Below are positions 23,891 through 59,600 of a DNA stretch of 64,000 nucleotides, piece after piece. Each line of letters opens with the position of its first letter. Positions within the stretch are counted from its first letter, which is position 1. The notes under the pieces are model-generated. The model was given only the letters and a program-made list of their open reading frames with translations, was not told the DNA's origin and searched no databases. Both the position numbers and the translations under genes were made by a program. Source of the stretch: Bolinopsis microptera (Eukaryota; Ctenophora; Tentaculata; Lobata; Bolinopsidae); NCBI RefSeq assembly GCF_026151205.1, contig NC_087084.1:3070845-3134844 (forward strand), read 5' to 3'.

Positions 23891-24049
23891 CTAAACATTA
23901 GAAGTTTGTACTTGTCCCTGCAGCATCCTCCAGCTTGACGAAGAAGTTGTGTGCGTCTTCAGTGTAAAGGTCCGGTTCAGGAATTCCTTCCGAAAGGAAA
24001 ATGTTCCAGTCCATTCTGTATTCACTGCCCGACATCTCCAACAAGCTCG

Positions 24050-25480: not shown

Positions 25481-26741
25481 ATGGGTGACCTCTAGCTCAG
25501 CAAGAGTGGCGTTAATTTTAGCTGAGAGCTTCTCCTCCATCTCGTCTTTTTCTGACCGAATGTTGTCTAGTTCTTGTCTGGAGCCCACCAGTTCTTTAAC
25601 GGTTACAAACACAATTTTCCTATGCTGGAACTGTTTATTAATCATACTAACATATTGAACAGCACATTCCTCTACATACATGTTGGTGGCTGCACCGCTC
25701 CTCTCCAGTTGAACCAGATCTTCCCATTTTATAACTCGTGATGCCTCATTCTCATCTTCCTCTGCGACATGAGCACACATTCCTTTCTGCACCATTCTAG
25801 CTATCTCACTGGAAGTCAATTCTTTGGAGTAAAAGTTTAGGTACATCATTTCTCCCCCAAACCTGTCGTTACCTCCTTCCCACATTCCCACTCCCAGTCT
25901 TAGTTTCCCTCCGGTACTTAGTGATCGACCTGATCGCGTTTGCTGCGATCCGATAACTTTCCCGTTGATATAGTATCGATGCTCTCTGGACGACAGACTC
26001 CACGTCATACAAGCTAGAAACCAAGTGCCTTCTGACACAGGGAACCCGCTGTTAAGTTGTTGAAATGCACTGAAGATGCCAGTGAAATATCCATTTGCCA
26101 TCATTACCAGCTCACTACTGTGGTAGCTAAAGATAGTAGGGTAGAAGAATGACCCCAAGTCTTTAACCCACACACAAGCAGAGAAAGCAGTGGTCAGACG
26201 GCTCCAATCGGGATACGAATCAATATAAGCAGCATTAACTGTGTCAAACTTTATAGCTGTCATCTTCAGGAGAGTCTCTGTGGTCCCGAGAGATGGCACG
26301 ATCAGCAGACTTAAAATGCTAAGTAACAAGAACATGATCTAATATCAACGAACGAATTGTAATGGTGTACGTTAGAAATGGTAGGTTTAGAGGGATCTGT
26401 CCAGTGTCCACGCTGCTAAGTTCTGAAGGACCCTATAAATTTCGTTAAATTTGCATCTGAGTAATTACAGATAAGAATATACTGTCCTGAAGATGACTAG
26501 TGCTTCGGTGGAAGGAAGCGAAAACATTGAAAGCGGGCAGACTCATGCAACAAAAAATATTACTGTTGCTAAGTTTAACGGGATTACAGATTATAAACTT
26601 CATTTATCTCCTATTCATTATTTGTGTAATTACAGATAAGAACATATAAGCCCTGAAGGTTACTAGCTCATAAATGGAAGGAAGTGGCAATGCAACATTT
26701 AAATTGGTTCAATGTCATGAAAATTTAGTACCTCCATTTAC

Positions 26742-35599: not shown

Positions 35600-36070
35600 T
35601 CCCGGGGTCTATCAAACAACTTACTCTTTCATATATTGTGGTTTGTTAACACTTTATTCCTGGTAACCTTGGTAACTTAAACGCTAACAGCAGCTAACTA
35701 TAGAGACACAAGATAATGGTTGGTAATCTTTGACTCCTGTTACATGTTAACCAATAAATCGGTCCTTAGAGTTAGCCGTCCAATGTCCATAATTTGATCA
35801 ATCGCTGATCGCAGTTTAGGCTATTTAAATTAGGTAAATTTTTTCATAAACTATACGGTCTCGAAGATCCTTGATTAATTTCATTCTATAATTGTTTCAA
35901 AGTTTGAATAGAAGATCGACCCAACGACAATATGATCTCTAAAATAAAAAGATCAGCATTTAATTCTTCATGAAGTGGTCCACTTCAAGTGGAATTCAAT
36001 AAAAAATTCATGATGATTAATTCTTACAAAATGTGTATATGGAGATTAGAAAGAAAACGAATACTGAATA

Positions 36071-36590
36071 TGATTTCTCTTGGAGAATTTCTCTTTAGAC
36101 TCTTAACTTGCGAACAAATTGAAGCAGCAAACTTTAGGCTAGAAACTTTATTGAATTGAAATAATCATTCCACGTAACAACGTCTTCTTCAGTTCTGTAA
36201 TAAAATTGTTAAACATGTGTAAAAATTAACGACGGAGAGAAATTTAAAATAACATTAAAAACAAAAACAGAGAAATAAAATTTACGAAATATGACCCAAA
36301 AATGTAATTGCAAAAAATGTCAAAACAACAAAAAATACGACAAGAAGAAATGTAAGCTAATACAACTAAATACTGTACTACTCATGATACTAAACTAATT
36401 AGTAAACGTAAAACTGGTTGTTCAGAATTCACAGTTCATGTGTAAAAACTAATGATAAAATCAGCACTTAAGCAACGATAACTCGGTTGTCATGGTTACT
36501 ATCCAAGATAGTCCTATCAATACATTATTTACTAGTTAAACATCGACTAAATATTTGTACAAATAACTCAACTCAGAACGATCATTCATT
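36071..36590. repeat. Left 520-bp inverted repeat of the Penelope-like element
   Basis: Reverse complement of 38661-39180; I found no mismatch in the parts compared. It contains the 3' end of the reading frame (last codons and stop at 36536) and the element's 3' untranslated region. Confidence 0.88.
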
Positions 36591-38764
36591 TCAGGACTTA
36601 ATCTCAATATATACATCGCTTCTACAATCTTTCTACGAACAGTTTTACTCTGTAAATCAAGTAACTTAAAAGATAAAACTGGGGTTCGGTTAGGATGTAG
36701 AGATGCGTAGTGCTGTCCAACCCCATTCTCTGGATGTGCTCTAGGATTCCTAGCAGCCTGTCTGTGCTCCATCAGACGAGCATGGAGGCTTCTCTCAGTT
36801 TCCCCACAGTATCTCTTACCACATAACTCGCAAGTAACTAAGTAAATAGCTCCTTTTGTTGAGCATGTTGTTCCTGTGAGTCTAGGGCAGATCTCACAAT
36901 TGTTAGGGTTACCAAGGTCACAAGTCTTCTTATCCAGTGGACGAGAGCGGCAGAAGATGTCCTGTAACTTCTTACCAGGTGTAAAAATAACTCTGATGGG
37001 GAGTTTGTTAGATTTTATGTAGTTGCGAATCTTATTACAAACTGTTCCAGAGATGAATGGTAAGGTGAGTGGGACAGAGTCAGGTGTGGTTTGACGTCTT
37101 CTCCTAGTCCTCCTGTTCCTTGCGTTATGACTCAGAGGTTGGTGTCCATTTTTCTTTAAGAGATCATCGATAATCTTAACTGAATGATCGAGTTCCTGGG
37201 GTCCTGAGGAAGCAATGGTGGCATTACGGTAGAAGTTCTTCTTACACTCCTCCTTCACTGAGTCCGGGTGGTGTGACTTCTGGTGTAATGTTATCCCCTT
37301 GTTCTGGGTTTTCCTGTAGAATCTGTGGTGCACTTTTCCTTCCTCATCGATCCGGATTTCCGTACTCAGGAACGGGACAAAATCCGCAGGGGTAGACGGG
37401 AACTCGATCTCCCACTTGATTCTGTTATCGGGATCCTGGTCGGCTATGCGTTGTAACATATCCAGTGCTTCTTCTCTGGATTTGGCTAAGGAACCAGCAT
37501 CATCTACATACCGTTTGTATAAGAACCGAACAGGGTTACTGATGTAATAACTGTCTAAATATATACTATTACGCTCGAATTTCCACATTCTAATAATCGC
37601 TACAGGAGGGGATGGTCTACAACCCATGAATAAACCTAAAAGTTGTTTATAAAGTCTCCCATTAAATGTAAAATAAGAATTCGTCAAAACTACTGTAAAG
37701 ATACCTCTAATTTCTGATAAACTTAAACAATACGTACTTAACTTACTCCAATGTTCTTCTGCAAATTCAATAACTGTCTCAATACACTCATTGATATTCA
37801 AATTCGTATACAAAGCTGATACATCCGCTGTAAAGAACTGTAAACCTTTAAGTTCACTCTCTGGTAGCCTACAGAGGATGTCCAGGTGGCTGTAGATATC
37901 GTACATATGAGTAGGTACTTCTCTCAACAAAGGACTGATAATGTCGGTAACTAACCAAGCCAACTTCTCTGTAGGTGAGCCACAACACGATACGATTGGT
38001 CTAACTTTCATATCCTCCAAGTTGATACGAGAGTAGTCAGTATCAGGTGGGAACTTGTGTGTCTTCACCAGGGTGTACATAGTAGGTAATGTAGAGTACG
38101 AGCTAATAAATAAATCCTCAATACGTGAGTCTAATTCCATATGGTTACTGCAAATAGTCCGCCACAACCTATTACACTCTGATTCAATATCTGCACATTT
38201 CTTGTTAATTTGATTCTGATACGTTATAGGAGTAGGTCGTTGAACAGGTCTGCGTACTCCGTAACTCAAACGGGTGGGCTCTACCCATTCGTAGACTCCA
38301 GAAGTGCTCTTGTTCAGGTGTTCGATCGTTAGCGTCCGGTACGTATCAACACTAGTCACGACAAACTCGCCACACTTATCAGACTTCGAGATGTGAATGT
38401 TCGGTCTTTCCTTGAGAGTACGTAGTCCAGTTCGCTGATTAAAAGTGAGGTTTGATGGTGGCTGGATATCTGGTGCTCTCAGGATGCTCATCATAAACCG
38501 GTTGAACAATTTCAAGTCCATCTCGAGTTGTGGATCTTCGTTCGGTGGTGCAGGGATGTAGGGTCGTTGAAACGGGCATTTCTTCTTGCGTGCTTGCCTG
38601 TACAAAGAATCTAACTGTCCTGGGTTCAGAGCTTCGTTATACGCACTTATACGCACATTCAATGAATGATCGTTCTGAGTTGAGTTATTTGTACAAATAT
38701 TTAGTCGATGTTTAACTAGTAAATAATGTATTGATAGGACTATCTTGGATAGTAACCATGACAA
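36536..38764 (-). CDS. Penelope-like reverse transcriptase with GIY-YIG endonuclease
   Basis: 742-codon uninterrupted frame. RT landmarks: KVRPIVSCCGSPTEK at about 253-267, motif A FFTADVSALYTNL at 310-322, motif B GLFMGCRPSPP at 377-387, catalytic YVDD at 419-422. A Cys-rich linker (CDLGNPNNCEICPRL) precedes the GIY-YIG endonuclease at about 638-692 (AIYLVTCELCGKRYCGETER, then SLHARLMEH and a conserved Asn at 680). This is the organisation of endonuclease-bearing Penelope-like elements, which use target-primed reverse transcription. There is no ATG before residue 82 (LEMDLKLF); the first 34 codons come from the inverted repeat and the frame starts with TTG, so the native N-terminus has been lost by 5' truncation. 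RT and endonuclease cores are complete. Confidence 0.92.
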   Translation of the reverse strand: MSWLLSKIVLSIHYLLVKHRLNICTNNSTQNDHSLNVRISAYNEALNPGQLDSLYRQARKKKCPFQRPYIPAPPNEDPQLEMDLKLFNRFMMSILRAPDIQPPSNLTFNQRTGLRTLKERPNIHISKSDKCGEFVVTSVDTYRTLTIEHLNKSTSGVYEWVEPTRLSYGVRRPVQRPTPITYQNQINKKCADIESECNRLWRTICSNHMELDSRIEDLFISSYSTLPTMYTLVKTHKFPPDTDYSRINLEDMKVRPIVSCCGSPTEKLAWLVTDIISPLLREVPTHMYDIYSHLDILCRLPESELKGLQFFTADVSALYTNLNINECIETVIEFAEEHWSKLSTYCLSLSEIRGIFTVVLTNSYFTFNGRLYKQLLGLFMGCRPSPPVAIIRMWKFERNSIYLDSYYISNPVRFLYKRYVDDAGSLAKSREEALDMLQRIADQDPDNRIKWEIEFPSTPADFVPFLSTEIRIDEEGKVHHRFYRKTQNKGITLHQKSHHPDSVKEECKKNFYRNATIASSGPQELDHSVKIIDDLLKKNGHQPLSHNARNRRTRRRRQTTPDSVPLTLPFISGTVCNKIRNYIKSNKLPIRVIFTPGKKLQDIFCRSRPLDKKTCDLGNPNNCEICPRLTGTTCSTKGAIYLVTCELCGKRYCGETERSLHARLMEHRQAARNPRAHPENGVGQHYASLHPNRTPVLSFKLLDLQSKTVRRKIVEAMYILRLSPEMNDRSELSYLYKYLVDV

Positions 38765-39180
38765 CCGAGTTATCGTTGCTTAAGTGCTGATTTTATCATT
38801 AGTTTTTACACATGAACTGTGAATTCTGAACAACCAGTTTTACGTTTACTAATTAGTTTAGTATCATGAGTAGTACAGTATTTAGTTGTATTAGCTTACA
38901 TTTCTTCTTGTCGTATTTTTTGTTGTTTTGACATTTTTTGCAATTACATTTTTGGGTCATATTTCGTAAATTTTATTTCTCTGTTTTTGTTTTTAATGTT
39001 ATTTTAAATTTCTCTCCGTCGTTAATTTTTACACATGTTTAACAATTTTATTACAGAACTGAAGAAGACGTTGTTACGTGGAATGATTATTTCAATTCAA
39101 TAAAGTTTCTAGCCTAAAGTTTGCTGCTTCAATTTGTTCGCAAGTTAAGAGTCTAAAGAGAAATTCTCCAAGAGAAATCA
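38661..39180. repeat. Right 520-bp inverted repeat of the Penelope-like element
   Basis: Inverted copy of the element's own 3' end placed at the 5' side. The open frame reads into it for 34 codons, which encode antisense of the C-terminal region rather than a native N-terminus. Confidence 0.88.
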
Positions 39181-39609
39181 AGTTCAAATGCGACTCATAA
39201 ATATAGCCCCCTTGAACTAGAATACTGAATAGCTGTGACATTTGGTAATCTCCATTAATAGCGAAGCTGTGACATTTAACTAAAATCCGTTAAATCAAGT
39301 CGATAACACTGAGTAATGTATAGATGCTTTTACCGCTTAAGTTGTTAGTTAAAAGGAAAAATCTTGTGAGCCATTGCTTGATCATATCTTTTTTAAAAGA
39401 TTAAAAGGGGACAAATAAATTTTACCCATTTCGTTCAGATAAGAACCATGCTTACTAAAAGAAAAAGTTGTTTTTAAAATTAATATGATTTTCGAAAAAT
39501 AATAGAAAAACAGTGTCTTAAATGACAAAGTTCCCTGCTCTGTGTAGTAAACAGAATTAAAACAGCTATTATAACCGTCCATTACTCCATTAATAGCGAA
39601 GTGTGGTAA

Positions 39610-41773
39610 CTATGGACTAGTATCAGGAGAATGTCCATTGCCACAGTTGGTCTTGTCAGTTATGTGATTAAGGAGCTCAATCACCTCTTTAGTCATCGTA
39701 ACACCAACCATCTTCCCTGAAATAAAGAAATGTACAAACTTTAACATACCTTTGTTCTTTGTGATGATGACCTGGTTAGTGTTAGAATATATAGTTAAAA
39801 GTTCATTGTACTAGACGTTTAATCTATTGCAGGTTTATTAACTACCATAGCATTGCTCTAACCAGAGCCCTCTCGCTTGCAGTAGCGCGCGACCGCCGTA
39901 GGCAACTTGTGAAACAAGTGACGAGCGCGTCACGCAGTACGCGTATACACATGGCTTTGTGAAACCATAGCACATACGCTTGTCATACGTTGTTATGGAC
40001 CTACCGCGCGGCTGTATAGTGTATCGTGGCCACTTATAAGTCTAGTGAAATGACAAATACAATGGGGGTCATGACGTGATACAAGTGAAATACAACCATA
40101 GGCATAACCAAGACGCGCACCGTATCACCCGTAAAGTTATACTTATCTGCTGGGAAAATATTAAAGCTTATTCCAGCCTTGAAGTAAAACCAAATTGAAT
40201 TAAATGTTAATGATAACCACTGATGCCATCCCAGATGTTTGTTAATCTCTTGGCCATGTTCCTCGTGAAAAGTTTGTCTATGTAGTTCTCCGAGTACAGC
40301 ATCAACCAGGATCTGTTTTCAACGGAGTCAAACAGGTCCAATATTTTTATCAACTTATCTGTGATCGTGTATCCCACCAGCCACTCTGAAATAATTTGTT
40401 ATTTAACGATGGCAGATTGAGATGGTTTATCAATATTTTATTTAAGTGGAATGATGTAAAATTCGTGGAACTGAATCATATTATTGATAAGTAAACAATT
40501 AGTGAATTAGCCATTGTTCATGCCATGTTTATTACTAATACTATTAGAAGTTTGATTACTATAATAAACATTAGAAGTTTGTACTTGTACCTGCTGCATC
40601 CTCCCAGCTTGAACGAAGAAGTTGTGCGTCTTCAGTAGTAAAGGTCCGGTTCAGGAATTCTTCCGAAAGGAAAATGTTCCAGTCCCATGTTCTGTATTCA
40701 CTGCCCGACATCTCCTCTAGCTCGTCAAGAGTAGAATTTAGTCTGGAAGAGATCTCATCCAGCTTCTGTTCCACCTTTTCTTTGTTCTTTTGTGTCTCTT
40801 CTAGCTCACTAATAGTTGCATTTAGCCTTGTGTTGACATCCTCAAGCTCTGTTTCCATCGTATGTTTGTTCTTTTGTGTCTCTTCTAGCTCACTGATAGT
40901 AGAATTCAGCCTTGTATTGACATCTTCCAGCTCTGTCTCCATCTCATTTTTCTCCTCCCGGGTGACTTCTAGCTCAGCAAGAGTGGCGTTCATTTTAGTT
41001 GAGAGCTTTTCCTCCATCTCTTCTTTTTCTAACCGAATGTTCTCTAGTTCTTGTCGGGAGTCCTTCAATTCCTCAATTACTTCGTTCTGCTTATTAATCG
41101 CATTAACTAGACATTCGTTTGCATACTCATATGTGTTGGTGGCTTTTCCACTCCTCTCTAGCTGAATCAGGTCTTCCCATTTTATAACTCGTGATGCCTC
41201 ATGCTCATCTTCCTCTGCGACAAGAGCACACATTCCTTTCTGTACCATTCTAGCTATCTCACTGGAAGTCAATTCTTTGGAGTAAAAGTTTAGGTACATC
41301 ATTTCTCCCCCAAACCTGAAGACGCTTGCATACCACATTCCCAGTTTTAGTTTCCCTCCGGTCCTTAGTGATCGGCCCGATGGCGTTTGCTGCGATCCGA
41401 TAACTTTTCCGTTGACGTAGTATCGCTGCTCTCTGGACGACAGACTCCACGTCATACAAGCTAGAAACCAAGTGCCTTTTGTTGGGAACCCGCTGTTAAA
41501 GTGTTGATATGCACTGAAGATGCCAGTGAAATATCCATTTGCCATCATTACCAGCTCATTAGTGTGGTAGCTAAAGATAGTATTGTAACCTGACCCCAAG
41601 TCTTTAACCCACACACAAGCAGAGAAAGCAGTGGTCAGACGGCTCCAATCGGGATAATATTCAATATTATCATCATTAACAGTAAACTTTATAGCTGTCA
41701 TCTTGAGGAGAGTCTCTGTGGTCCCGAGAGATGACATTATCAGCAGACTTAAAATACTAAATAACAAGATCAT
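39610..41773 (-). CDS. Pentraxin-like coiled-coil secreted protein, copy D
   Basis: Exons on the minus strand: 41773-40591, 40385-40218, 39716-39610; 485 residues, all phases consistent. Signal peptide residues 1-17 (ILLFSILSLLIMSSLG), pentraxin-like domain about 20-210 with Cys53 (ACVWVKD) and Cys106 (LACMTWS), a linker with Cys182 (KGMCALVAEEDE) and Cys221, then about three 28-residue heptad repeats (four heptads each) from about 277, ending EYRTWDWNIFLSEEFLNRTF. Exon 2 (WLVGYTITDKLIKILDLFDS) and exon 3 (KMVGVTMTKEVIELLNH, one Cys) form a compact C-terminal region. It differs from C mainly around the putative ligand face (YASVFRFGG for DGGNNRFGG), suggesting divergence of binding specificity. 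Confidence 0.82.
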
Positions 41774-42164
41774 GATTTAATATCAGCGAACGAATTGTAA
41801 TGGTGTACGTTAAAAATGGTAGGTTCTAGAGAATCTTTCCACGTTGCTAAGCTCTGAAGAACCCCACAAATTTCGTTAACTTTGCATCGGAGTAATTATA
41901 CAAATAAAATTATAAGAATATACTGTCCTGAAGTTGGAGGACTTCGCCGCTTCGACGCGCCGCGCAAACTAATTACAGCTAGATAAGAACATTAAATAAG
42001 CCCTGAAGGTTATTACTACTGCACTGTCTACTAGCTCATAAAATTAAATGGAAGGAAGGAAGTGGCAATGCAACATCTAAATTGGTTTAATGTCATGAAA
42101 ATTTAATACCTCCAGATCCATGGCCATTTTATTAAATTTCAAAATTTCAGTGACCAAAACGGAT

Positions 42165-42660: not shown

Positions 42661-44234
42661 GGGGGGTTGTTACCCCTCTATTCCTGGTAACCTTGGTAAC
42701 TTAAACGCGCTAACAGCGGCTAACTATTATAGATACACAAGATAATGGTTGGTAATCCTTGTGCCTTGACTCCTGTTACATGTTAATAATTGTTAACCAA
42801 TAAATCGGTCCTTATTCGGGCAATTTGCTTTCTCTGTGCATATTCAGGGCCGTCAAATGTCCATAATTTGATCAATCGCTCGCAGTTTAGGCTATTTAAA
42901 ATAGGTAACTTTTTTTCATAAACTATACGGTCTCTAACTCTAAGATCCTTGATTAATTTCATTCTAAAATTGTTTCAAAGTTTCAATAGAAGACCCAGCG
43001 ACAATATCTCTAAAATAAAAAGATCAGCATTTCATTCTGCATGAAGTGGTCCACTTCAAGTGGAATTCAGTAAAATATTCGTAATGATTAATTCTTACAA
43101 AATGTGTATATATATCTCTATATATAGAGATTAGAGAGAGGATATGTCCATAAACTTTGAGTCTAGTAGCGGATTTAATCATATCATTTTTAATCATGGA
43201 AAGAAATTGTGCGGCTTTATACCCAGTCTAAAAATGATTATCTCGAAGAATTCTTTACTAAATTAATTCCATATAATTAAATAGTTTGTTTTAATCTAAA
43301 AATAGTTGAACGTTTTGGTTAAATTCACCTCTGTTCGATTAGTTTTCTTTCCCACCTACTAGTACTTGTGATTTTGTGAATAATGATTAGATTTGTTTGG
43401 TTTATATTATGTGTTTGTGTGTGTATTTAAAGCATTAGCACTGCGGAAAAAAAGTTTTCTTTCATTCTATTCTTCGTGCTTCAATTCGTTACATATTTTC
43501 ACAAGAGTATTGTATGATTTATGAATCTAATTATAGATCGCAGTTCCGGGACTGCACTCAATTTCGACCCAAATTTGAGAAATTAACGAACTCGATTTAT
43601 AAAGGGTAAACTATACCTGGGATGAATTGTTTTGCATAACCAATTCAGTACAAATAATAACAACAAATTTAGTATTAAGTATTACTATTACACATAATTG
43701 ATATATAATTAATTATACAATTCATTTTATCAATCCATCATCCATGTTAACTACAAGTACAATAGAAATAGTATTGCCAGTAAATTAACAGTAGTACATA
43801 AAAATAAACGCGTCAATACTCAATTTGATATAAATTAAGTCTTTTAGTTCGTTGATGTTAAAACGGTAATTGTTTCTCATGAGGTCATGTCGTATAATAT
43901 AATGGCTTGTTTATGATTTAGTTTGCTCAGTTTATGATTTATCAAAGTTCATAGTTTGCGTAACCGCAAACTGGCCGTGATGTAATTTACCCGGCGCGAC
44001 ATTCACTCCACCCGCATTCATTTCACTTCTATCTTCCAGAATAGAGGGGAAGATGAGCAAGCTGGATAATGACATTCTTTTTTGGAATTATATCACGCTT
44101 GCTCTTTTAGTATTAGCACTAACATCAAACATGAAAACTGAGAAGTTAGCATATGAAGCAAGTCATAAAACTAAAACTAAAGTAGCCTGGAAAAGTATTT
44201 GTTTGTGCGTTGATTTACAGAGAGGGGAACAAAT

Positions 44235-44696
44235 TTACAATGCCGACTCCACTTCGTAAAAAGAAAGATTTATCAGTCCTGAACTTTTTGATTTGATTGC
44301 CTCTCTATCACTCGGAGCTAAAACAATCAAACTGTTTCTCAAAACGTGTTTCTGTATTCGTTCCTCTGCGGCCAACTTGCCGGATACTGGTCTGGTTCTA
44401 GCTTTACCCTGGGTAGCTGTCATGCGCCTCTTAATCACAGGATCTGAAGCTGGTCGGTAGTATTCCCCAATTCGAGGCTTTAATTTAACCGGACTTGGTG
44501 TCGTAGTAACATCCGACTCTTGCGAGGGTGTTTTGTGAGAATGTCTGTAGATGAAGTCGTTGGAAGCAGAGAGACTAGCCGGTCTGACGGGTACAGTGAC
44601 ACTGTGGTGAGCACTAGTTTCTGTAGTGAGGGTCTGGGAGAAGACGCTCCCGCGGGTGGAGAAGGAGCTGCTTTGTCTGCGTAGACGGATAGCTAT
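44235..44696 (-). CDS. GPCR terminal exon: 153-residue cytoplasmic tail
   Basis: The acceptor 'aatcctcccacag' starts the exon in phase 0: IAIRLRRQSSSFSTRGSVFS, and the frame stays open to a stop at 44235 (ending YEVESAL). It follows TM7 exon residues EFRVAAKSIFFDSA. The tail is rich in Ser/Thr and Arg/Lys (RRQSSS, TTTPSPVKLKPR), typical of kinase and arrestin sites. Reading through the TM7 donor instead would add 10 residues and a stop, giving a receptor with almost no tail. Confidence 0.85.
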   Translation of the reverse strand: MAIRLRRQSSSFSTRGSVFSQTLTTETSAHHSVTVPVRPASLSASNDFIYRHSHKTPSQESDVTTTPSPVKLKPRIGEYYRPASDPVIKRRMTATQGKARTRPVSGKLAAEERIQKHVLRNSLIVLAPSDREAIKSKSSGLINLSFYEVESAL

Positions 44697-47600
44697 CTGT
44701 GGGAGGATTGTGTTAACGTTATGTTAACGTCATGTTAACGTTATGTTAATGTTATGTTAACGGTATGTTAACGTTATGTTAACGGTATGTTAACGGTGTT
44801 AACTGTTAACACTACAGAACCCTTTTAGGTTTATATGACTTAACTAGAGGATTTTATTATGTTTTATGTAAATTGTAAAATTGTTTCGTTGTAAAGGAGA
44901 TCGGTCATGTTGTTATGATGCTTATTAAAAACTATTAATATTTAATATCGTAAAAAGACAACAAGTATGCGCTTTTACGCACCTTAATATCTAACTACGG
45001 TAACATCAAAATCTTGATTTGACTAACAGCAGAATCAAAGAAGATGGATTTGGCGGCCACTCGGAACTCTTTGTTTAGCAAGAAGTAGATGAGAGGATTG
45101 ATGCTAGCATTACTCAGCATCAACAAGATGAAACCTTGAACTTCTGAGTATGTTACCTGAGGAGATTCAACTGGTCATAACTTAGAAACAGTCGTGTAGC
45201 TTAACATTAAGATTGCAGCTTTCAACAGTTTTTAATAATCACTCAAATTCTCCATAAAATGACTTAAAACTTGTTTTAAAAAATCAAAACCCTAATTTAA
45301 AATGGTAGTAGACGCCAAAAGACTACACCCACATTGACGTTGTAATGAAATGCTGCTAGGAAAGCTATAGATAGTAGTGGAGTGTAGCTGACTAGGATAG
45401 TAGTGCCAATAACAATGAGCAGGGTTCCTGCTTGGTTACGTAGCTTTCTGGCTGCTGCTTCTTCTTCCGACTGTAAACAGTAAATTGTTAACGTTACTCT
45501 TATGAATATTACATTAATCAGATGGCTGCTGTTAGACTGCAATAATATAACGGCCGTTAGAAACTGCGAGTAAGCTATAATACAGCTGGAACTGTTAATA
45601 CCTTGGCGGTTAAATTTGTTAAGTACCACTATAAAAGATGCAAATTTCTGAAAACGTCATGACTCATGAGGTAAATTTGTTAATTCTCCGGGATTTCGAC
45701 CACTTAAAACATCTTGATCTAGCAGGACTCACCAACGCAATGGACGTATTGCGTGTTCGGTACACGAATGAGTGTGGTTGTCCTGGTTGCTCTCCTTCAC
45801 CTTGGTTTGGTCTCCAAATCAACAACGCTCTCAACGCTTGCACAATCTGTAAATTAATAACTTTGAAACATTTGAAATTTGAAATGAAATGATGTATAGA
45901 AACATTACATCCCCATTTCCACCTAAATTCGCGGTTTGGCCTATCTCGACCTCCATCATCCAAATCACCACACGTCTCTGAACACTTCTACGGAGCTACA
46001 AAAGTGTAAATAATGAAATATCTTATAACCTGTTTGTAGAATGACTTCTCTGTCTCCTGATCAGTGTTCATGTTGGGTGTTGTGTGGACCCACTTTCCTT
46101 GCCTCACTCTCAGTGTATCATAGCTTGAGGAGATATTTAAGGGGACTTCGTCGGATAGCCTGCATGAAAATGTGTAAACAAATATTGGCTTCTTCTTAAA
46201 GACTTCATAATATGACATGAGGATTCGCAAGCCATCAAGTGATGCTACTGATGAAACCAAGCACAAAATAATCTATATTATCATCATCCTAAGCCTTTTT
46301 TTCCAAAGAGTGAGAGTCCAATCGAAATACCTAAATACAATATAAACATTTAAAAAATAGTATCCAAATCTACCTGACGATGGGTTCGTTTGTACAAGGG
46401 AAGGTGAAGTTGGGTGTTAAATGTTTGTGGGGTTGTGTACTTTCACTTGTTTGTCTCTTCATCTGAAATCATTGAGCAGATTAACAAGTGTTTCGGCTTC
46501 ATTTCAAAAGAGTGATAACAAAAATAATCCATCAATGATCCTGTAAGAATTGGGCACTATGCAGCCACTTTTACAGCTGTAGTGAATAAGTATAATAAAC
46601 TTGTACTTGTATTGTATAGTAGTAATGTATATTGTATAGTAGTAATGTATATTGTATAGTAGTAATGTATAGTAGTAATTTATAGTAGTAATTTATAGTA
46701 GTAATGTAGCAGTATAAGTTATAACTATAAGTAACTGAATAAGTTATTATATAAGTAACTAAATAAGTAACTACCTCGAGTGTACTCTCACAACTAAGAG
46801 GTCTCCAACTAGGACTAGAACCAGAGATCCTGTCTAACTGACGTCTTGTGTACTTTCGTGTCGTGATAAATATTACTGCGGAGAAGGAATTGTTACTAAA
46901 TATTACTAATTATTACTATAAATTACAGATATGATAATATGAAAATTGTGTCTTGACTCACGGACGGTTAATAGGGATAAAAACAATGTTCACAAGCTGG
47001 GCGTTGCTGGCAGCAGCAGCAGCGGCTGCCAAGTGCAAAATTAGACAACTCTACAAAAGTTACCAAACACTTTTAATAACTGACAGTATAAAGTTTTTCA
47101 CCTAATTTTGAGCGTGTATTGACGCAGTAGATGGGGTGATACCATGTGATAACCATATAAGGGGTGATTGTTAGAAGCTAGCTACTGTTGTGCAGTCATG
47201 ATATTCAGGCGAATCCACGAGATATTGTCCGAATAACACGCACAAAAATTCACGGAATGCAAATCGTTTTACCATTTATCAAATTAGGACTTGACAAGAG
47301 CAGCTCCAATGTTTTTGTCCGGAAACTTCCGGAATGTTCAAAACTAATAAACGGTCACGTGATAATCACTTTCAGTTCTATAACCGGACGTAAGGGCCTG
47401 TTTTATAATTGGTGAAACGTCCTGCCTGCAAACGGGTAGAAGGAGAGTATGCTTACCAACATAGATGGTCAGTACTTATTACTTACCGACATAGCTGGTC
47501 AGTACTTATTACTTACCGACATAGCTGGTCAGTACTTATTACTTACCAGTTACCAACATAGCTGGTCAGTACTTATTACTTACCGACATAGCTGGTCAGT

Positions 47601-50600
47601 ACTTATTACTTACCAGTTACCAACATAGCTGGTCAGTACTTATTACTTACCGACATAGCTGGTCAGTACTTATTACTTACCGACATAGCTGGTCAGTACT
47701 TATTACTTACCGACATAGCTGGTCAGTACTTATTACTTACCAGTTACCAACATAGCTGGTCAGTACTTATTACTTACCGACATAGCTGGTTAGTATGATA
47801 ATGATGGGCAGAGGTAGGAATCCTATGTTGAAAGCTAAGAAATAGGCGACGTTATATCTTGAGCTCATAGCACACCTGAGAATAATACTGATGTTACATG
47901 ACCATATAAGGCAACAAAAGTGTTACTTTTTCAATGACGGGTATAGAATTGTAGCATCTTAGAATAAGTTTACTGGTTGGTTATCAACATGGGTTTGTCC
48001 AGCTATCGTTCAATTTGAACAGCTGTTCTCTGTTTACCAATAATAGTTAATAGTTATCAGTAAAATAATTCGGCCAGAAGGTAAATATGTGATTAGTCAA
48101 ATCATTGTCAAAAATACAAAAGGTTTTGTAACATAATTAAGTGATTTATAAATAAATACCATGGATGGGATGGGTGGAACATGTATTTGAAGTTGTTGAC
48201 TCCTAGTACTATATACTGACTATATAACAGTCCCAAAACCATGCCTCCGCCCTCCATCAAACAACGCTATATAAACTTTGAGATGTTATAAACTTACTGT
48301 CTTATTGTCCTCTGCAGCAAGTCTGAGGTTATACTCGCTGAGAGCGATGATGAAGATGATAGCATGGTTTATACATCGCCAAAACAATGTATTGAGTTAC
48401 AGAAAATGAATAGCAGCCGGTTTACACTTTACAGAATTGCACATGATATATACATGACACAGGGGCTCCGTCACCAAGCAGACGATCGAGCAGACGAAAC
48501 AGCTGACAGAGAAAATACAAGAAGTGATTCCGAGCGGGTGTAAGAAGGGTGTAAAGTATAGGTAGCTCAATGTACGAGTGTGCACGTGTGCGCGGCTCCG
48601 ACTGGCACTAATTGTGGTAATAAATAACCATGAGCTGATATAATGATTTCCCGCCAAATATGAAACAGCTAGTACTGTGTCTTCTAGAATGTTCGCTTGG
48701 ATCGATGTTATGACAGCTTAAGACAGATATTTACTAATCCACAGTTCAAATCTTTGACGATGAAATTGTAAATGTATAGGTATTATAATAGTTGAAATTT
48801 ATAGATTTTAACTACCGAGCTGGTTGCGTGATGTTGAGAAATTTGTTGATTTCTGCATTTTCGAAACGTTCTTTTTTCGAAAAGGAACGCAAAGCCGTTT
48901 CCTGTCAGTCCGACTAACATTATCAAACTGAAGAGTGTTCCTGCAGAATCCGGTCCGAGGTCCGGATAACTTAAGCAGCTGTGAGCTGTAAGTGAAAGCG
49001 AGTGGCAGGTAGATATTAAACTCTTCAGCTGCTGAGTGAGAGGTGTTTTGATGCCTATTTGATGCTCAAACTAGCTTTTTTCTAGTTTCCGTCACACACC
49101 GAGATCGGTGTGTAATCGGTCACGTGCGGGTCACGAGGTAGGGATTGAGCGCGCTTAGTGGCGGCATATAGCACGTGATATTTGCAAAGCCAATTACACG
49201 CCTTATACGGTATAATCAATATATAATTGCGTGCGTGCAAGTAAATATTTTGTAAACAATGTAAGTATAAAGTTAACTTTTGCTTGGATATAAACATGCA
49301 AGTGTGAGGTAGCATAGTTGGCAGTGCACTGGTTTGTTGCTCAGATGGGTGAGAGCATGGGTTTGTCTGAACCATCCTCGAAATCGTTGTTACGTTGAAA
49401 ACTGTAACTCAGCTCGATTATCATGTTACCTAGCTAGTAACTTGGTGATTGAACAGAGAGTGGAAAACCAGACGAAAGTAAAGATGAAGTCTCGGGGACC
49501 GGGGAAGCGGCTGATGATGGGCAAGAATAATTAAAGCGCCCTAGGCCGCTCCCCAAACCAGACCAATAACACATTTTCTGAAAATTTCTAATTTTCGAGG
49601 TAAAACTAAAGGTAACATTTTTAGCGACAAAATAGGCATATTTGTATGTTGTAGCTAGTAATCAGTTGTATAACTCTCGTGCACGCTGGCCGCGCGCGAT
49701 CAAAAAAGGTTGCGCAACGTGTATCGAGTCATCTGATAAGCTACAACTCCAATTTTTTAAGAACAAATGTAATTCGAAATATGGCCAAACTTTGACGGAT
49801 GTTACTCGTCTAAATTTCTTCGAAGTAGTGCGCGCCGCTTTCTTCTCGAAATGTTAGTGGCCCGATGGCAAGTGCTACGAAGTAGCGCGCGCCGGGCCAG
49901 ATCATTAACAATGGTCAAGGCCAAACTGCAAACACAATCCGATAAAAATTAGCTCGAATCTCGATCCGATTTGCTACACGTTGTATATTTGTAGCGCGAT
50001 GCATTATTGTGTACTTACTGGTCCGCGCTGCGCATCAAATAATTCTTTTAGCAACCTTGTCATACGTTGTGCGCGGCTCCCCCTGTATCGTCGAAGACGA
50101 TACAGGATCACTACTACTATAGTGAAGCGACCGTGGGGGTCACCACGTGATACAATAGCAACCACAGTAGATCGGCAAAATGTTAAATGCACCACTGAGC
50201 CTGATCGCTTCGCAGAGCAAAGATTTCGATGGGTTGACATCGTCAATCAAGTTTGACATCTACTCTCACAGAAGCTCGAAAAGAGCGCTGCACATTAATA
50301 TTGGGATTGGCGTGCATTGTCTCACGTCGTGACCCTCATTGCTGAGATCGTCCGATCCTGATTGTTATTCCATTTAATAATGGCATATTGGCATGGCAAA
50401 AGCCACGATACGGCCGCTCACTTGCATGCGCGGCGGGCCTACAATGTGAGGCAAGGCGTGCCAGTACAGGTAACATCGCCCTTAGCATATAATTACAGCA
50501 TACAGGCAATTTTCGCATCGCATGTAATAAATGCTGCATTTTACTTGAAAGTTTCAATCGAAAAGTAATTTCAGTATTATCTTAATATTTTAACATGTAA

Positions 50601-53600
50601 TTAAAATTGTGTTATCAGTTTGAGTTATGAACTTTAAAAGACTTTGTTTCTTCTTCCGAAGTAAAAACGGGTCAATCATAATACAAAGTGTAAAACAACA
50701 ATAAAATACCATATTTTATCAATCAATATGTCACACGATTCCGTCAGTTCGAATAGGGGACATACTGCAGCTTCATGTTTTAAAGAAAGACTGGCCTATT
50801 TTTTCTGATTAATTGGGCGGCATATTTGCATCAAATAATATAAAATTGATCATTGTGGGATTTAGCACTGGAATTTAGCACGTAAACATCAGAAATCATA
50901 CTACTTTAACGCTTGAAATAATAACTGATTAATAATACTGCAGATTATATTTTACTGTTTCGATTCATATCACTTTATTGTTTATGATGTTAAAGAAATA
51001 AAACATTACTTCACAGTCATACCCCAGAAAGAATAGCACTTAAAACCTAAGAAAAATTGTGTTAAGTTTTCATGTATTGTGCATGACTACATGACGTACG
51101 TATGTACATATTATTATAAATTTACTTTCACCAATAATTGAATAGTTGTAAATGATGCAGGTATTCAAATGGAGGAAAGTAGCAGTACAAAAATGATAAA
51201 CCTCCCGAGTCCTGCATAGATTAGTTTTCTTTCCCACCTACTAGTACTACTACTTGTGACTTTGTGAATAATGATTAGATTTGTTTGGTTTATGTTATGT
51301 ATTTATCTGTGTATTTAAAGCATTAGCACTGCGGACAAAAAGTTTTCCTTCATTCTATTCTTCGTGCTTCAATTCGTCACATATTTTCACAAGAGTATTG
51401 TATATGAATATGATTTATGAATCTAATTATAGATCGCGCAGTTCTGGGACTGCACTCAATTTCGACCCAAATTTGAGAAATTAACGGACTCAATTTCTAA
51501 AGCCAAAGGGTAAACTACCTGGGATGAATTGTTTTGCATAACCCTTACAGTACGAATAATAACAAAAAGTTTAGTATTAAGTGTTCAGTATTACTATTGT
51601 ACACATAATTAATATATAATTTATTATTCAATTCATATTTTAAATCCATGTCAACTAAAAGTACAATAGAAATAGTATTGCCAGTAAATTAATAGTGTCA
51701 GTTGTACTAGTACATCAAAATAAACGCGTAAATTTGATATAAATAAAGTCTTTTAGTTCGTTGATGTTAAAACGGTAATTGTTTCTCATGAGGTCATGTC
51801 GTATAATATAATGGCTTGTTTATGATTTAGTTTGCTCAGTTTATGATTTATCAAAGTTCATAGTTTGCGTAACCGCAAACTGGCCGTGATGTAATTTACC
51901 CGGCGCGACATTCACTCCACCCGCATTCATTTCACTTCTATCTTCCAGAATAGAGGGGAAGATGAGCAAGCTGGATAATGACATTCTTTTTTGGAATTAT
52001 ATCACGCTTGCTCTTTTAGTATTAGCACTAACATCAAACATGAAAACTGAGAAGTTAGCATATGAAGCAAGTCATAAAACTAAAACTCATAAAACTAAAA
52101 CTTAAGTAACCTTGGAAAAGTATTTGTTTGTGCGTTGATTTACAGAAAGGGGACAAATTTACAATAGCCGACTCCACTTCGTAAAAAGAAAATTAATCAA
52201 TCCTGAACTTTTTGATTTTGATTGGCCTCTCTAATCACTCGGAAGCTAAAACGATCAACTGTTTCTCAAAACGAGTTTCTGTATTCGTTCCCTGCAGCCA
52301 ACTTGCGCTACAGGCCTGTTCTACGTTTACCCTGTAGCTGCATGCGCCTCTTGATCACAGGATCTGAAGCTGGTCGTAGTATATATTCGCCCCAATTCGA
52401 GTTTCAATTTAACCGGACTTGGCTGTCGTAGTAACAATCCGACTCTTGCGAGGTTGTTTGTTGAGAATGTCTGTAGATGAAGTCGTTGGAAAGCGGAGAG
52501 ACCTAGCCGGTCTGGACGGGTACAGTGACACTGTTGTGAGCACTAGTTTTTTCAGTAGTGATGGTCTGGGAGAAGACCTCCCGCGGGTGGAGAATGAGCT
52601 GCTTTGTCTGCGTAGACGGATTGCTAACGTGGGAGGAATTGTGTTAACGTTATGGTAACGTTATGTTACGTTATGTTAACGTTATGTTAACGTTATGTTA
52701 ACGTTATGTTAACGTTATGTTAACGTTATGTTAACGTCATGTTAACTTCATGTTAACGTTATTTTAACGGTATGTTAACGTTATGTTAACGTCATGTGAA
52801 CGAGTGCGGATACTCGCACCCGTTATAAACCTACAACTATAACAAGGGTTCTGTAATGTTAACTGTTAACAACACAGAACCCATTTTAGGTTTATAAGAC
52901 TTAACTAGAGGATTTTTTATGTGTTATGTAAAATTTTTTCGTGTAAAGGAGATCGGTCATGTTTGTTAAGATCTTAATAAAAACTATTAATAATTAATAT
53001 CGTAAAAAGACAACAATACGCCTTTTACGCACCTAAATATCTAACTACGGTAACATCAAAATCTTGATTAGACTAACCGCAGAATCTAAGAAGATGGATT
53101 TGGAGGCCACTCCGGAATCTCCTTTGTTTAGGCAAGAAGTAATGAGAGGATGTATACTATCATTACTTAGCATCAAACAAGATGAAACCTAGAACTTCTG
53201 ATATTGTAACGCTGAGGAGATTCAACTGGTTCATAACTAAAGAAATCAGTCGTGTACGCCTTAACATAAAATGGTCAAGGCATTTCAACAGTTTTATAAT
53301 ATATAATCACTCAAATTCGTCCATAAAATTGACTTAAAACTTTTTATAAAAAGATCAAAAACCCTAATTTAAAAAAATGGTAATTAGACGCCATAAGACT
53401 ACACCCACATTGACGTTGTAATGAAATGCTGCTTGCTGAAAGCTAAAGATAGTAGTGGAGTGTAGGCTGACTAGATAGTAGTGCCAATAACAATGAGGCA
53501 GGGTTCCTGCTTGGTTACGCAGCTTTCCTGGCTGGCTGCTTCTTCTTCCCGACTGTAAAGAAACCAGTAAATGATTGACGATACTCTATGAAAATTACAT

Positions 53601-56600
53601 TAATCAGATGGCTGCACTGTTAGACTGCATAATATAACGCCGTATTAGAAACTGTGAGTAAGCTATAATACAGCTGGAACTGTTAATACCTTGGCGGTTA
53701 AATTTGTTAAGTACCCTAAAAAAGGATGCAATTTCTGAAAACAGTCATGACTCTTGAGGTAAATTTTAATTCTCCGGGATATCGGACGCACTTAAAAAAG
53801 AATGTAAACATCTTGATCTAGCGGACTCACCAACGCAATGGACGTATTGCGTGATCGGGGTACACAATGAGTGAGGCAGTCCTGGTTGGCACTCCTTCGC
53901 CTTGGTTTGGTCTCGCAAATCAACAACGCTCTCAACGCTTGGTCACATCTGAAAATTAATAACTTTGAAACATTTTGAAATTTGAAATTTGAAATTAAAT
54001 GCTGTATAGAAACATTACATCCCCATTTCCACCTAAATTCGCGGTTTGGCCTATTTCGACCACCATCTCCCAATCACCTACTTGTACGCTCTGAACACTT
54101 CAAGCGGAGCTACAAAAGATGTGAATAATGAAAAATCCCATAACCAGTTTGTAGAATGACTTCTCTGTCTCCTGAAATCAGTGTTGCATGTTGGGTGTTG
54201 TGGGGATCTCACTTTCCTTGCCGCCTTCACTCTCAGTTGTCAACATAGTTTCTTTGAGGAGATATTTAAGGGGACTGTTCGTCGGATAGCCTGCATGAAA
54301 AATGGTGTTAAAAATATTGGCTTCTTCTTAAGACTTCATAATATGACTTTCTTAACGATCATGAGGATTCGCAAGCCATCAAGTGATGGCTACTGAGAAA
54401 CCAAGCACAAAATAGTTATATTATCATCATCCTAAGCTTTTTTCCAAAAGTGATAAGTCCCATTCGAATACCTACTTACAATATAAACAGTTAAAAAAAA
54501 TAGTATCCAAATCTACTTACGATGGGTATCGTATTGTACAAGGAAGTGAAGTTGGGTTTAACAGTTTGTGGGGTTGTGTACTTTCACTTGTTTGTCTCTT
54601 CATCTGAAATCATGTAGCAGATAACAAAAGAGCGATAACAAAAATAATCCATCAATGATCCTGTAAGAATTGGGCACTATGCAGCCACTTTTACAGTAGC
54701 GAATAAAATAATAAACTTGTACTTGTATTCTAGTAGTAAAAAATGTACATTGTATAGAATAATGTATATTGTATAGAAGTAATGTATATATCTTAATTTA
54801 ATAGTAGTAATTTATGAGTTTAGTATAATGTAAGCCACTACACTGAGTATAATAAATATATAATAAACAGGCATCATATATTATATAATCACTATAGACA
54901 GTGAGTACTATTTAAATATAGGTTACCTATATAATAACTACAATAAAGCGCGCGAGCACCGAGCTATCTGATTTACATAATTACATTTAAGTAACAAATA
55001 AGTAACTACCTCGAGTGTGCTCTCACAACTAAGAGGTCACCAACTAGGACCTATAAACCAGAAATCCTGTCTAACTGACTCTTGATGGACTTTCGTGTCG
55101 TGATAAATATTACTGCGGAGAAGAATAATTACTAAATTATTACTAATTATTATTAATTATTACTAATTATTACTAATTATTACTAATTATTACTATAAAT
55201 TACAGATATGATGATATAAAATTGTCTTGACTCACGGAGACGGGTTAATAGGATAAAAACAATGTTCACAAGCTGCGTTCAGGCAGCAGCAGCAGCGGCT
55301 GCAAGTGCAAAATTAACAACCTACAAAAGTTACCAACACTTTTAATAACTGACATTAAAAGTTTTTTCACTTAATATTTGAGCGTGTATTGACGCAGTAG
55401 ATGGGGGATTCCATGTGATAACCATATAAGGATGATATTTAGACTACTGATGACCTGTCATGATATTCAGAGGCAAATCCACGATATATTGGGTCCGAAT
55501 AACAGGCACAAAAATTCACGAATCAAATCGTTTAAACCCATTTATCAAATTAGGACTTGAAAAGAGCATCTCCAATGTTTTTGTCCGGAAACTTCCGGAA
55601 TGTTCAAAACTAATAAACTATCACGTGATAATCACTTTCAGTTTTACCAGAGTTCTGGAACCGGACGTAAGGGCCTGTTTTATAATTAATGAAACCTCCT
55701 GCCTGCAAACGGGGAGAAGGAGGCGTAAAGTAGAGAGTATACTTACCAACATAGCTGGTCAGTACTTAAAACTACAACATACTGGTCAGTACTTATTACT
55801 TTACCGACATAGCTGTCAGTACTTATACTACCGACATAGCTGGTCAGTACTTCTTACTTACCAAATAGCGGTCAGTACTTATTAACTTACCAACCATAGC
55901 TGTCATACTTATTACTTACCAACATAGCTGTCAGTACTTATTACTTACTAACATTCTGGTCATACTTATTACTTTACCGACATAGCTGGTCAGTACTTAT
56001 TACTTACCAACATAGCGGTCATACTTATTACTTACCGACATAGCTGTCAGTTACTTATAACTTACCGACATAGGCTGGTCAGCGTACACATAATTAACTT
56101 ACAACATAGCTGTCCAGTACTTATTACTAACAGCCATAGCTGGTCCAGTACTTATTACTTACCGAACATAGCTGTTCGTACTTATTACTACCAACATAGC
56201 TGGTCAGTACTTATACTTACCACATAGCTGGACATACTTATTCCTTTACCGACAGTAGCTGGGTCAAACTTATTACTAACCAAACATAGCTTGGTCAGTA
56301 CTTATTACTACCGACATAGCTGGTCAGTACTATTTACTTACTCAACATACTGGTCAGTACTTATTACTTTTACCGACATAGCTGGTTAGTATGATAATGA
56401 TGGGCAGAGGTAGAGATCCTATGTTGAAAGCTAAGAAAAACGACTGATATATCTTGACTCATAGCACACCTGATGATAATACTGATGTTACATGACCATA
56501 TAAGGCAATAAAAGTGTTACATTACCATAAAAGGCAATAAAGTGTTACTTTTTCAATGACGGGTATATAATTGTAGCATCTTAGAGTAAGTTTACAGGGT

Positions 56601-59600
56601 TGGTTATCAACATGGGTGTGTCCAGATATCGTTAAATTTGAACGGCTGTTATCTGTTCACCAATAATAACTATTATACTATATCAGTAAAATAATACGGC
56701 CAGGTGTTAAATATGTGATTAGTCAATCTTGTCAAAATACAAAGATTTTTAATAAAAATTACTTATAAATCAATACATGGATGGGATGGGTTTTGGTGGA
56801 AAAAAACATGTAATTTGAGGTTGTGACCCTAGTAAGTGGCGGAAACGACCATCAAACAAGCCAACACCATTCCCGTATCACATAGCTAGTCCCCTTCGTA
56901 TAATGTTCTGAATAGACAAGCTTTTCGTTATTATTGTTCTGGAATAAACAAGCTTTTCGTTATTATTGTTCTGGAATAGACAAGCTTTTCGTTATTATTG
57001 CTCTGGAAAAGACAAAGAAAGAATTCACGTAAAGGCTTAAACTCATAGTGTATTTATATACTATAGATATTAGATATGGTGGGCTCAAAAACAAATTAAA
57101 AACAGGAGAATCAGTATTTCTGTCTCATTTTCAATGAAGCAAAAAAGTGTTCCAAAACCAAAAAAGCACCTAGGTAACTCGCATATATATAAGGTTACAT
57201 TTTAGTTAAATTTTAGTTAAATCGTGTAAGTTAAATGTTAGTTAAATGCTACCTGTGTCTGAAAGGTACTCGTATAGCAAAGCACCGATCCACACTACCG
57301 AGAGCAACCGTCCAGAGGCTGTTAATCAGCGCCACATTGTTTAGGAAGGCTATTGTTTGACAGATGAAGTCTCCTAGAACCCACCGTTCGTACACCACCG
57401 ATAACACTCCGCACCCTAGCATCTGCCACAGTTGGTTAAATGTTAGTTAAATGTTAGTTAAATGTTAGATGAATGTTAGTTAAATGTTAGTTAAATGTTA
57501 GTTAAATGTATTAAATGTTAGTTAAATGTTAGATAAATGTTAGTTAAATGTTAGTTAAATGTGGATTAATGTAGTTAAATGTTAGTTAAGAAATGTAGTT
57601 AAAATGTTAGTTAAATGTTTAGTTAAATGTTATTTAAATGTAGTATAAATGTTAGTTAAATGTAGTTTTTAAATGTTAGTTAAATGTTAGTTAAAATGTT
57701 CAGTTAACTGTTAGTTAAAGTTTAGTTCAAATGTTATTAAATGTTAGTTCAATGTTAGTTACATGTTAGTTTAAATGTTAGTTAAATGTTAGTTAAATGT
57801 TAGATAAATGTTAGTATCAATGTAGTTAAAATGTTAGTTTTAAATGTTAGTTAAATGTTAGTTAAATGTTAGTTAAATGTTAGTTAAATGTTATTAAATG
57901 TAATTAAATGCTAGTTAAATGTTAGTTTAAATGTTATTAAATGTTAGTTAAACAAATGTTAGTTAAATGTTAGTTAAATGTTATTTAAATGTTAGTTAAA
58001 TGTTAGTTCAATGTTAGTTAAATGTTAGTTAAATGTTAGTTAAATGTTAGTTAAATGTTAGTTAAATGTTAGTTAAATGTTAGTTAAATGTTAGTTAAAT
58101 GTTAGTTAAATGTTAGTTAAATGTTAGTTAAATGTTAGTTAAAATGTATTAAATGTTAGTTTAATGTTAGTTCAATGTTAGTTAAATGTTAGTTAAAGTT
58201 ATTAATGTTAGTTAAATGTTAGTTAAATGTAGTTAAATTTAGATTAAATGTTAGTTAAATGTTTTATAAATGTTGTTTAAATGTTAGTTAAATGTTAGTT
58301 AAATGTTAGGTTAAATGTAAGTTAAATTGTTAGTTAAATGTTATTAAATGTTAGTTAAATGGTAGTTAAATGTTATTAAATGTTAGTTAAATGTTTAGTT
58401 AAATTGTTATTTAAATGTTAGTATATGTAGTTAAATGTTAGTTAAAATTGTAAGTTAAATGCTAGTTAAATTTAGTTAAATGTTAGTTAAATGTTAGTAA
58501 ATGTTGATAAATGTAGTTAATGTTAGTTAAATGTTATTTAAAAGGTTATTAAATGTTAGTTCAATGTTAGATAAATGTTATTAAATGTTAGTTAAATGTT
58601 AGTTAAATGTTAGTTAAATGTTAGTTCAATGTTAGTTAAATGTTAGTTAAATGTTAGTTAAATGTTAGTTAAATGTTAGTTAAATTGTAAGTTAAATGTT
58701 AGTTAAATGTTAGATTAAATGTTAGTTATTGATAGTTAAATGTTAGTTAAATGTTAGTTAAATGTTATTAAATGTTAGTTAAATGTTATTCAAAATGTTA
58801 GTTAAAATGTTAGTTACCATGTTAGTTAAATGTAATTTTAAATGTAAGTTAAATTATTAAATGTAGTTAAATGTAAGTTAAATGTTAGTTAAATGTTAGT
58901 TAAATGTTAGTAAATGTTTATTCAAATGTAGTTAAATTGTTATGTTACATGTTAGTTCAATGTTAGTTAAATGTTTAGTTAAATGTTAGTTTAAATGTTA
59001 GTATAAATGTTAGTTAAATGTTAGTTAAAATTGGGTTTTTAGTTTAAATTGTTAGTTAAATGTTAGTTAAATGTTAGTTAAATGTTAGTTAAATGTATAG
59101 TGAACTTATAGTGAACTTATAGTGAACTTATAGTGAACTTATGGTGAACTTAAACCGAACAAAGTTATTACTTTGGGGTTATATTGGAGTATTGGGTCAT
59201 TGGGTTTTAACCCTGCCATAGTCAGTTGAAAGTCTGATAGCATATGTTCCGTTTGATTTGACCAAACTAATGCCTTTCATTGCTTTATAGCGACCAGAAA
59301 AGCTTTTTGAATGTCAAGTCAAACTTCAGTTTCATATCAATACTTTAATTTCAGCGACGGTTTTATTTAAGCCACATTACGTTTACTTTGAAGTAATTTA
59401 ATTCTGTAGAATAAACATTTATACTATGGCCTTATATTGAGGCTAAAGTGTGTCAACCGTCAACCGTCTAGAATTTACAAAGAATTTAACATAATATGTA
59501 TCTGTACTGTCTTACTTTGTGTTCAAATTCAGGAAATGAGTAGTCTAAATAGCATATCCGGCAAGCAAATACCGGAAATCCGCTGGTAAATATTATTACA

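Follow-up and report, generated by a model that had tools for sequence, protein, structure and literature searches.

A donor-bearing minisatellite behind the putative fifth-helix exon of a receptor-like gene in the ctenophore Bolinopsis microptera

The window considered here is a 64,000-nt stretch of the genome of the ctenophore Bolinopsis microptera (RefSeq assembly GCF_026151205.1, contig NC_087084.1, positions 3,070,845 to 3,134,844 of the forward strand), and all coordinates below count from its first letter. On its minus strand lies what looks like a gene for a class-A (rhodopsin-type) receptor, and the putative exon for the fifth transmembrane helix (TM5) ends in a minisatellite that repeats its 5′ splice site. 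Except for TM3, the exons listed here belong to one copy (copy A) of a partial duplication.

47452..47795, minus: donor-containing minisatellite, 11 units, from Tandem Repeats Finder (TRF) and reading of the minus strand
47778..47875, minus: putative TM5 exon, 98 nt, the last 18 nt being the exon part of the first unit
47766..47777, minus: first donor, TCG/GTAAGTAATAAG, the sole one to keep the frame among 11 main donors
46030..46247, minus: putative exon for the third intracellular loop (ICL3), following TM5; acceptor TTTCATCAG/TAGC, phase matching the first donor
45733..45846, minus: putative ICL3 exon, open, phase 0
45333..45470, minus: putative TM6 exon
44999..45156, minus: TM7 exon with NPLIY, 3′ end provisional
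57253..57422, minus: TM3 exon with DRC, which raises the 7tm_1 score when joined to the copy-A exons

The presence of a 30-bp minisatellite behind the putative TM5 exon, first noted in a preliminary description of this DNA, is confirmed. By TRF the array has a period of 30 and 10.8 copies; it consists of seven 30-mers that are exact when phased as ACCAGC...TACTG, three 37-mers, which are the 30-mer with an additional GTAACTG, and a diverged last unit. Each 30-bp unit joins TACTRACCAGCTATGTYG (18 nt, exon end) to GTAAGTAATAAG (12 nt, intron start), and the array starts inside the end of the putative exon and extends into the intron, with a complete donor in each unit. The exon's own copy of TACTRACCAGCTATGTYG differs from the later units, carrying an A where those have a G. 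The claim that a complete 5′ splice site has been multiplied is thus borne out (11 units, each with a full donor); the unit had been described as the TM5 exon end plus its donor, which was correct in the 24 nt given and six exonic nucleotides short. Genome-wide, the exact 24-mer of the unit has at least seven matches, all inside this array, and at up to two mismatches at least two further sites, both inside a second array described below; both counts are lower bounds. Chance is not a serious alternative for the origin of the array, since coding sequence and donor recur as one piece in the unit. A block of 30 bp, with 18 nt from the exon and 12 nt from the intron, would have multiplied in tandem and turned the putative exon/intron junction into a minisatellite, an origin that can be read from the units themselves.

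Donor strength was scored as pairing energy against the 5′ end of the U1 small nuclear RNA of this genome, the genes of which start with ATACTTACCTG in both loci excised (of 10 matches). The ten GTAAGT donors of the array score between -10.7 and -10.9 kcal/mol; GTAAGC, the last donor, reaches -8.0 kcal/mol and the three GTAACT sites -5.0 kcal/mol. Four other presumed donors of the receptor gene lie at -5.6 to -9.2 kcal/mol, and the array donors therefore count as strong. Where about 11 donors of identical strength had been proposed, there are ten near-equal ones and a weaker 11th.

In the predicted gene model, donor 1 joined to the acceptor at 46248/46247 (TTTCATCAG/TAGC) leaves the frame open through TM6, whereas all ten later GTAAGT or GTAAGC donors would lead to ...TSYVGK and then a stop; this frame test covered the 11 main donors, the three weak GTAACT sites being left out. 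The earlier statement that only the first donor gives receptor and that later ones end in a stop therefore holds in this model, with one open junction and ten reading Gly-Lys-stop. An alternative acceptor near 46160, read by hand, gives a stop when joined to donor 1, and we infer that 46248/46247 is the acceptor in use. RNA accessibility was set aside as a discriminator: donor 1 is the most open GTAAGT (0.32 versus 0.18-0.30), a difference that is too small.

Class-A G-protein-coupled receptors carry NPxxY in TM7 and DR(Y/C) at the end of TM3, and the translations of 44995-45174 and 57249-57446 contain NPLIY and DRC, respectively. Against the Pfam profile 7tm_1, the copy-A exons alone score 27.1 bits, under the curated cut-off of 30.5; joined in the analysis to the TM3 exon (57253-57422), they reach 46.5 bits, so that the TM3 exon and the copy-A exons look like one receptor. 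The copy-A exons are open and phase-compatible. A search for the remaining helices made no secure find of TM1, TM2 or TM4, and the TM3 exon is separated from the copy-A exons by the other copy of the duplication (copy B) and by about 3 kb made up mostly of dispersed repeats. Array-free paralogues were rejected as an outgroup: nine of the 30 matches fall in the locus, and the 21 elsewhere, at 22-41% identity, are therefore too distant for an intron comparison.

Other repeats adjoin presumed exons of the gene. A 32-bp repeat on the minus strand at 56904-57015, present in 3.5 copies, contains TATTCCAG together with what is presumed to be the beginning of the TM4 exon, and may represent an acceptor multiplied in the same receptor gene; its first two acceptors, read by hand with the TM4 exon provisional, run into a stop. 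At 57431-59101 (minus strand), about 151 copies of ATTTAACTAAC reach as far as the TM3 exon's acceptor. This 11-bp array is indel-rich, compared with 0 or 1 indel in each of five other window arrays, and is rich in CTAAC, a branch-point-like motif. In copy A, an array of TGTTAACGTTA at 44711-44808 stops about 14 nt short of the acceptor belonging to a presumed C-terminal tail exon (exon start 44696), and copy B contains a longer TGTTAACGTTA array at 52642-52802.

The donor array has a counterpart 8 kb away, inside the partial duplicate:

43337..48208, minus: copy A, exons open; homology with copy B stops at 48208, where repeats start
48209..51218, no strand: spacer, mostly dispersed repeats that also occur at other places in the genome; no match is listed for about 180 nt
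51219..56834, minus: copy B, matching 43337-48208 piecewise, indel-rich, probably uncorrected sequence
55740..56391, minus: second array, about 22 units, scattered one-base indels

An earlier count of about 21 units for the second array is close: TRF gives a 30-bp row at 55775-56391 with 20.6 copies and a 58-bp row at 55740-56391 with 10.9 copies, and the best tiled fit has 22 units (511.7, versus 481.9 for 21 and 509.7 for both 23 and 24). Common to both arrays are the exon side TTG and, following it, the intron side GTAAG(T/C)ATACTCTC. The GTAACTG insert of 7 bp, carried by three units of the first array, was not seen by eye in any unit of the second. The proposal that array length can vary gains support from these two related arrays, which differ in unit number and in make-up; 11 versus about 22 units suggests rapid turnover of unit number, with the caveat that copy B is noisy.

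Outside the array, the three aligned segments of copies A and B differ by 176 mismatches, divided into 66 transitions and 110 transversions, and by 250 gap openings, of which 172 are 1 bp long. As controls, five duplicate pairs from the window were pooled; they show 230 mismatches, 127 of which are transitions, and 115 gaps, 43 of which are 1 bp long. Copy B departs from them in the ratio of gaps to mismatches (Fisher test, 3e-12), in 1-bp gaps (3e-8) and in transitions (66/176 versus 127/230, 4e-4). This pool was picked from seven duplicate pairs; the two omitted are 25222-26480, with 49 gaps and 74 mismatches, and 24041-24803, with 71 gaps and 52 mismatches, the latter noise-like itself, and all seven together, with 235 gaps to 356 mismatches, are still unlike copy B. 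In segment 1, substitutions stand at 35.2 per kb in exons versus 35.6 per kb outside, and deletions at 19.0 versus 20.5 per kb. Positions 43837-44177 of copy A (about 340 bp) are identical in copy B. The assembly was made with wtdbg, gap closing by TGS-Gapcloser, Purge Haplotigs and pilon polishing (PMC10232365). We infer that the one-base indels of copy B reflect uncorrected long-read error more than decay. Biological decay of copy B as a pseudogene is less likely, given that the differences are rich in gaps and in 1-bp gaps and that exon substitutions are not reduced. The decayed look of the second array should not be taken as biology before a check of the reads.

For comparison, arrays were sampled in 26 pieces of 8 kb (208 kb), two at fixed positions on each of the contigs C1-C13, which make up 97.5% of the genome (264.65 Mb, 232 contigs). 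The best match in this genome to ML032222a, a PDB chain from Mnemiopsis leidyi, has 81% identity over 117 residues, as would suit a ctenophore of another species. None of the 80 sampled arrays of at least 2.5 copies has GTAAGT in its unit (95% upper bound 3.7%); three arrays of the window do, namely the two donor arrays and a short 10-bp array at 1631-1659. Array density is ordinary, with 45 distinct arrays (period of at least 7) in the 64-kb window versus 125 in the 208-kb sample. Genome-wide, a triple GGTAAGT pattern has 5033 matches versus 45 for the mirrored word; further words of the same composition have 1058, 596, 1154 and 4818. A genome-wide enrichment of donor-word arrays is rejected, as one of the five same-composition words (4818) nearly equals the GGTAAGT count. 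The 100 listed of the 5033 matches all fall in the first 3.2 Mb of C1, in a few long satellites. Long GGTAAGT-containing satellites on C1 include L037, L038 and L039, with units of 14, 22 and 32 bp; no exon was evident by eye at the array edge of L037 and L038.

How such an array would be spliced can be judged from its sequence and from better-studied donor pairs. With moderate confidence, we favour the reading that the first donor is used nearly always, that the array is close to a neutral passenger and that the decay of copy B is mostly read error. Donor 1 would pair with the acceptor of its own exon by exon definition, which is proposed because a short exon (98 nt) precedes an intron of about 1.5 kb, and the remaining units would leave as intron. 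Being close to neutral, the array would be free to change its length, as the 11 versus about 22 units of the two copies lead us to suppose. Five minigenes that offered two identical CAG/guaagu donors under exon definition, with introns of 365 nt, all spliced exclusively from the upstream one (PMC9225289), and by this rule receptor would be made at any array length here.

Several points weigh against this reading. In the same study, natural donor pairs prefer the downstream site in about 60% of cases before strength matching and the upstream site in 60% after it, strict intron definition prefers the downstream donor, and the proximity rule derives from human data and from two donors, not eleven (PMC9225289). 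The other introns of the receptor gene are short (176-262 nt). Human IFI6 reportedly uses two downstream repeat units as donors, yielding three mRNAs (PMC4526556), so that leakage to later units can happen; at the array described here, donor use is predicted from DNA sequence. The density of insertions in copy B is higher within exons (43.7 per kb) than in the rest of segment 1 (32.3 per kb), and read error alone is an inadequate explanation. The methods section on the assembly names no PacBio read type for Bolinopsis microptera, the long-read type being deduced (PMC10232365). Copy A, lastly, is without TM1-TM4 alongside.

The preliminary description had instead suggested that the size of the array might set the balance between functional transcript and truncated or decayed transcript. 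U1 would then be spread over ten equal donors, later use would be proportional to unit number, and later-donor transcripts would stop after Gly-Lys, to be followed by decay or a five-helix fragment. Such tuning could draw on the ten donors of equal predicted strength, on the stop behind all ten later main donors, on the different array lengths of copies A and B and on the two downstream units of the human IFI6 array reported as donors (PMC4526556). Yet the two-donor minigenes used the upstream donor exclusively (PMC9225289), which leaves the proposal unsupported, and we consider it improbable. More remote still would be a rheostat in which the fraction of transcripts that stop after helix five depends on how many U1 sites follow the TM5 exon, and in which alleles of 11 and about 22 units result in different receptor levels.

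The remaining alternatives concern the two copies themselves. Tentatively, A and B could be allelic versions of a single locus (11 versus about 22 units) that the assembler placed end to end; the sequenced animal would in that case be heterozygous for array length. The identical run of about 340 bp amid noise-like differences elsewhere would fit, as would the lack of any other unit copy in the assembly at two mismatches (counts being lower bounds). However, the duplicate search, as set, gave no match between the spacer and either flank, and the spacer's repeat adjoining B is not noisy (15 private substitutions and 3 indels over 807 nt); the one next to A is mildly so (24 private substitutions and 14 indels, against 7/0 and 9/2 in two other copies). 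The data are equally compatible with a real duplication in which copy B is of poor sequence quality. It is rather unlikely that copy A is an orphan 3′ half, split from TM1-TM4 by copy B and about 3 kb of repeats, with the array in a non-functional or rarely used segment: the A/B homology does stop at 48208, at the start of dispersed repeats, and the TM3 exon is located beyond copy B, but the exons of copy A have open frames in compatible phases, and their score once the TM3 exon is added exceeds the 7tm_1 cut-off (46.5 versus 30.5 bits). Hardly credible is an origin of the copy-A array as an assembly artefact, for which the indel-rich state of other window repeats (24041-24803; 57431-59101) might be invoked, since the copy-A units are clean and copy B has an array of the 30-bp unit with matching exon and intron sides.

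Elsewhere in the window, 19881-42166 comprises several related segments with 84-bp repeats in varying number. Among them, 24041-24803 (array 24104-25350) matches 29230-30073 with the 71 gaps and 52 mismatches given above and looks uncorrected, and 40571-41776, the sole open copy tested, matches Laminin_G_3 and also contains a coiled-coil part. A 526-bp inverted repeat (36065-36590 and 38661-39186, 99.6% identical) reaches into either end of an open frame of 747 aa. The frame's match to GIY-YIG is weak and below cut-off (E 0.0029), and we take this to be perhaps a Penelope-type element.

Minisatellites typically vary in unit number between individuals, and one in human IFI6 (6-16, G1P3) reportedly provides multiple splice donor sites, a finding attributed to Turri, Cuin and Porter in 1995 (NAR 23:1854). 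The array described here resembles it in being a tandem unit of minisatellite size with a full splice donor. It differs in lying in a receptor-like ctenophore gene, in its 30-bp unit, in that all later main donors would lead to a stop, and in being known so far from genomic DNA. Variable tandem repeats at exon-intron boundaries also alter splicing in human segmental duplications; those repeats are said to form novel introns, whereas here, likewise at an exon-intron boundary, the donor is multiplied beside an existing intron (PMC2812944). No convincing acceptor was seen by eye inside the array unit. The minigenes mentioned above share with this locus equal donors after one exon, there with a measured outcome, and differ from its natural array in being two designed donors in transfected cells (PMC9225289). 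For MIR137HG, a gene bearing a variable number tandem repeat, new donors are described, which may or may not be the repeat units. A narrow search of the open-access literature found no donor minisatellite in a ctenophore or in a receptor gene. We regard the array as a clear new case of an already known phenomenon, probably near-neutral, in a candidate receptor gene of uncertain completeness.

Since ten donors of nearly equal strength follow a single exon, the locus offers a natural test of donor competition, and does so in a lineage distant from human. If unit 1 alone is used, the cross-exon proximity rule would be extended to ten competitors; any other usage would mean that a receptor is controlled by a changeable repeat.

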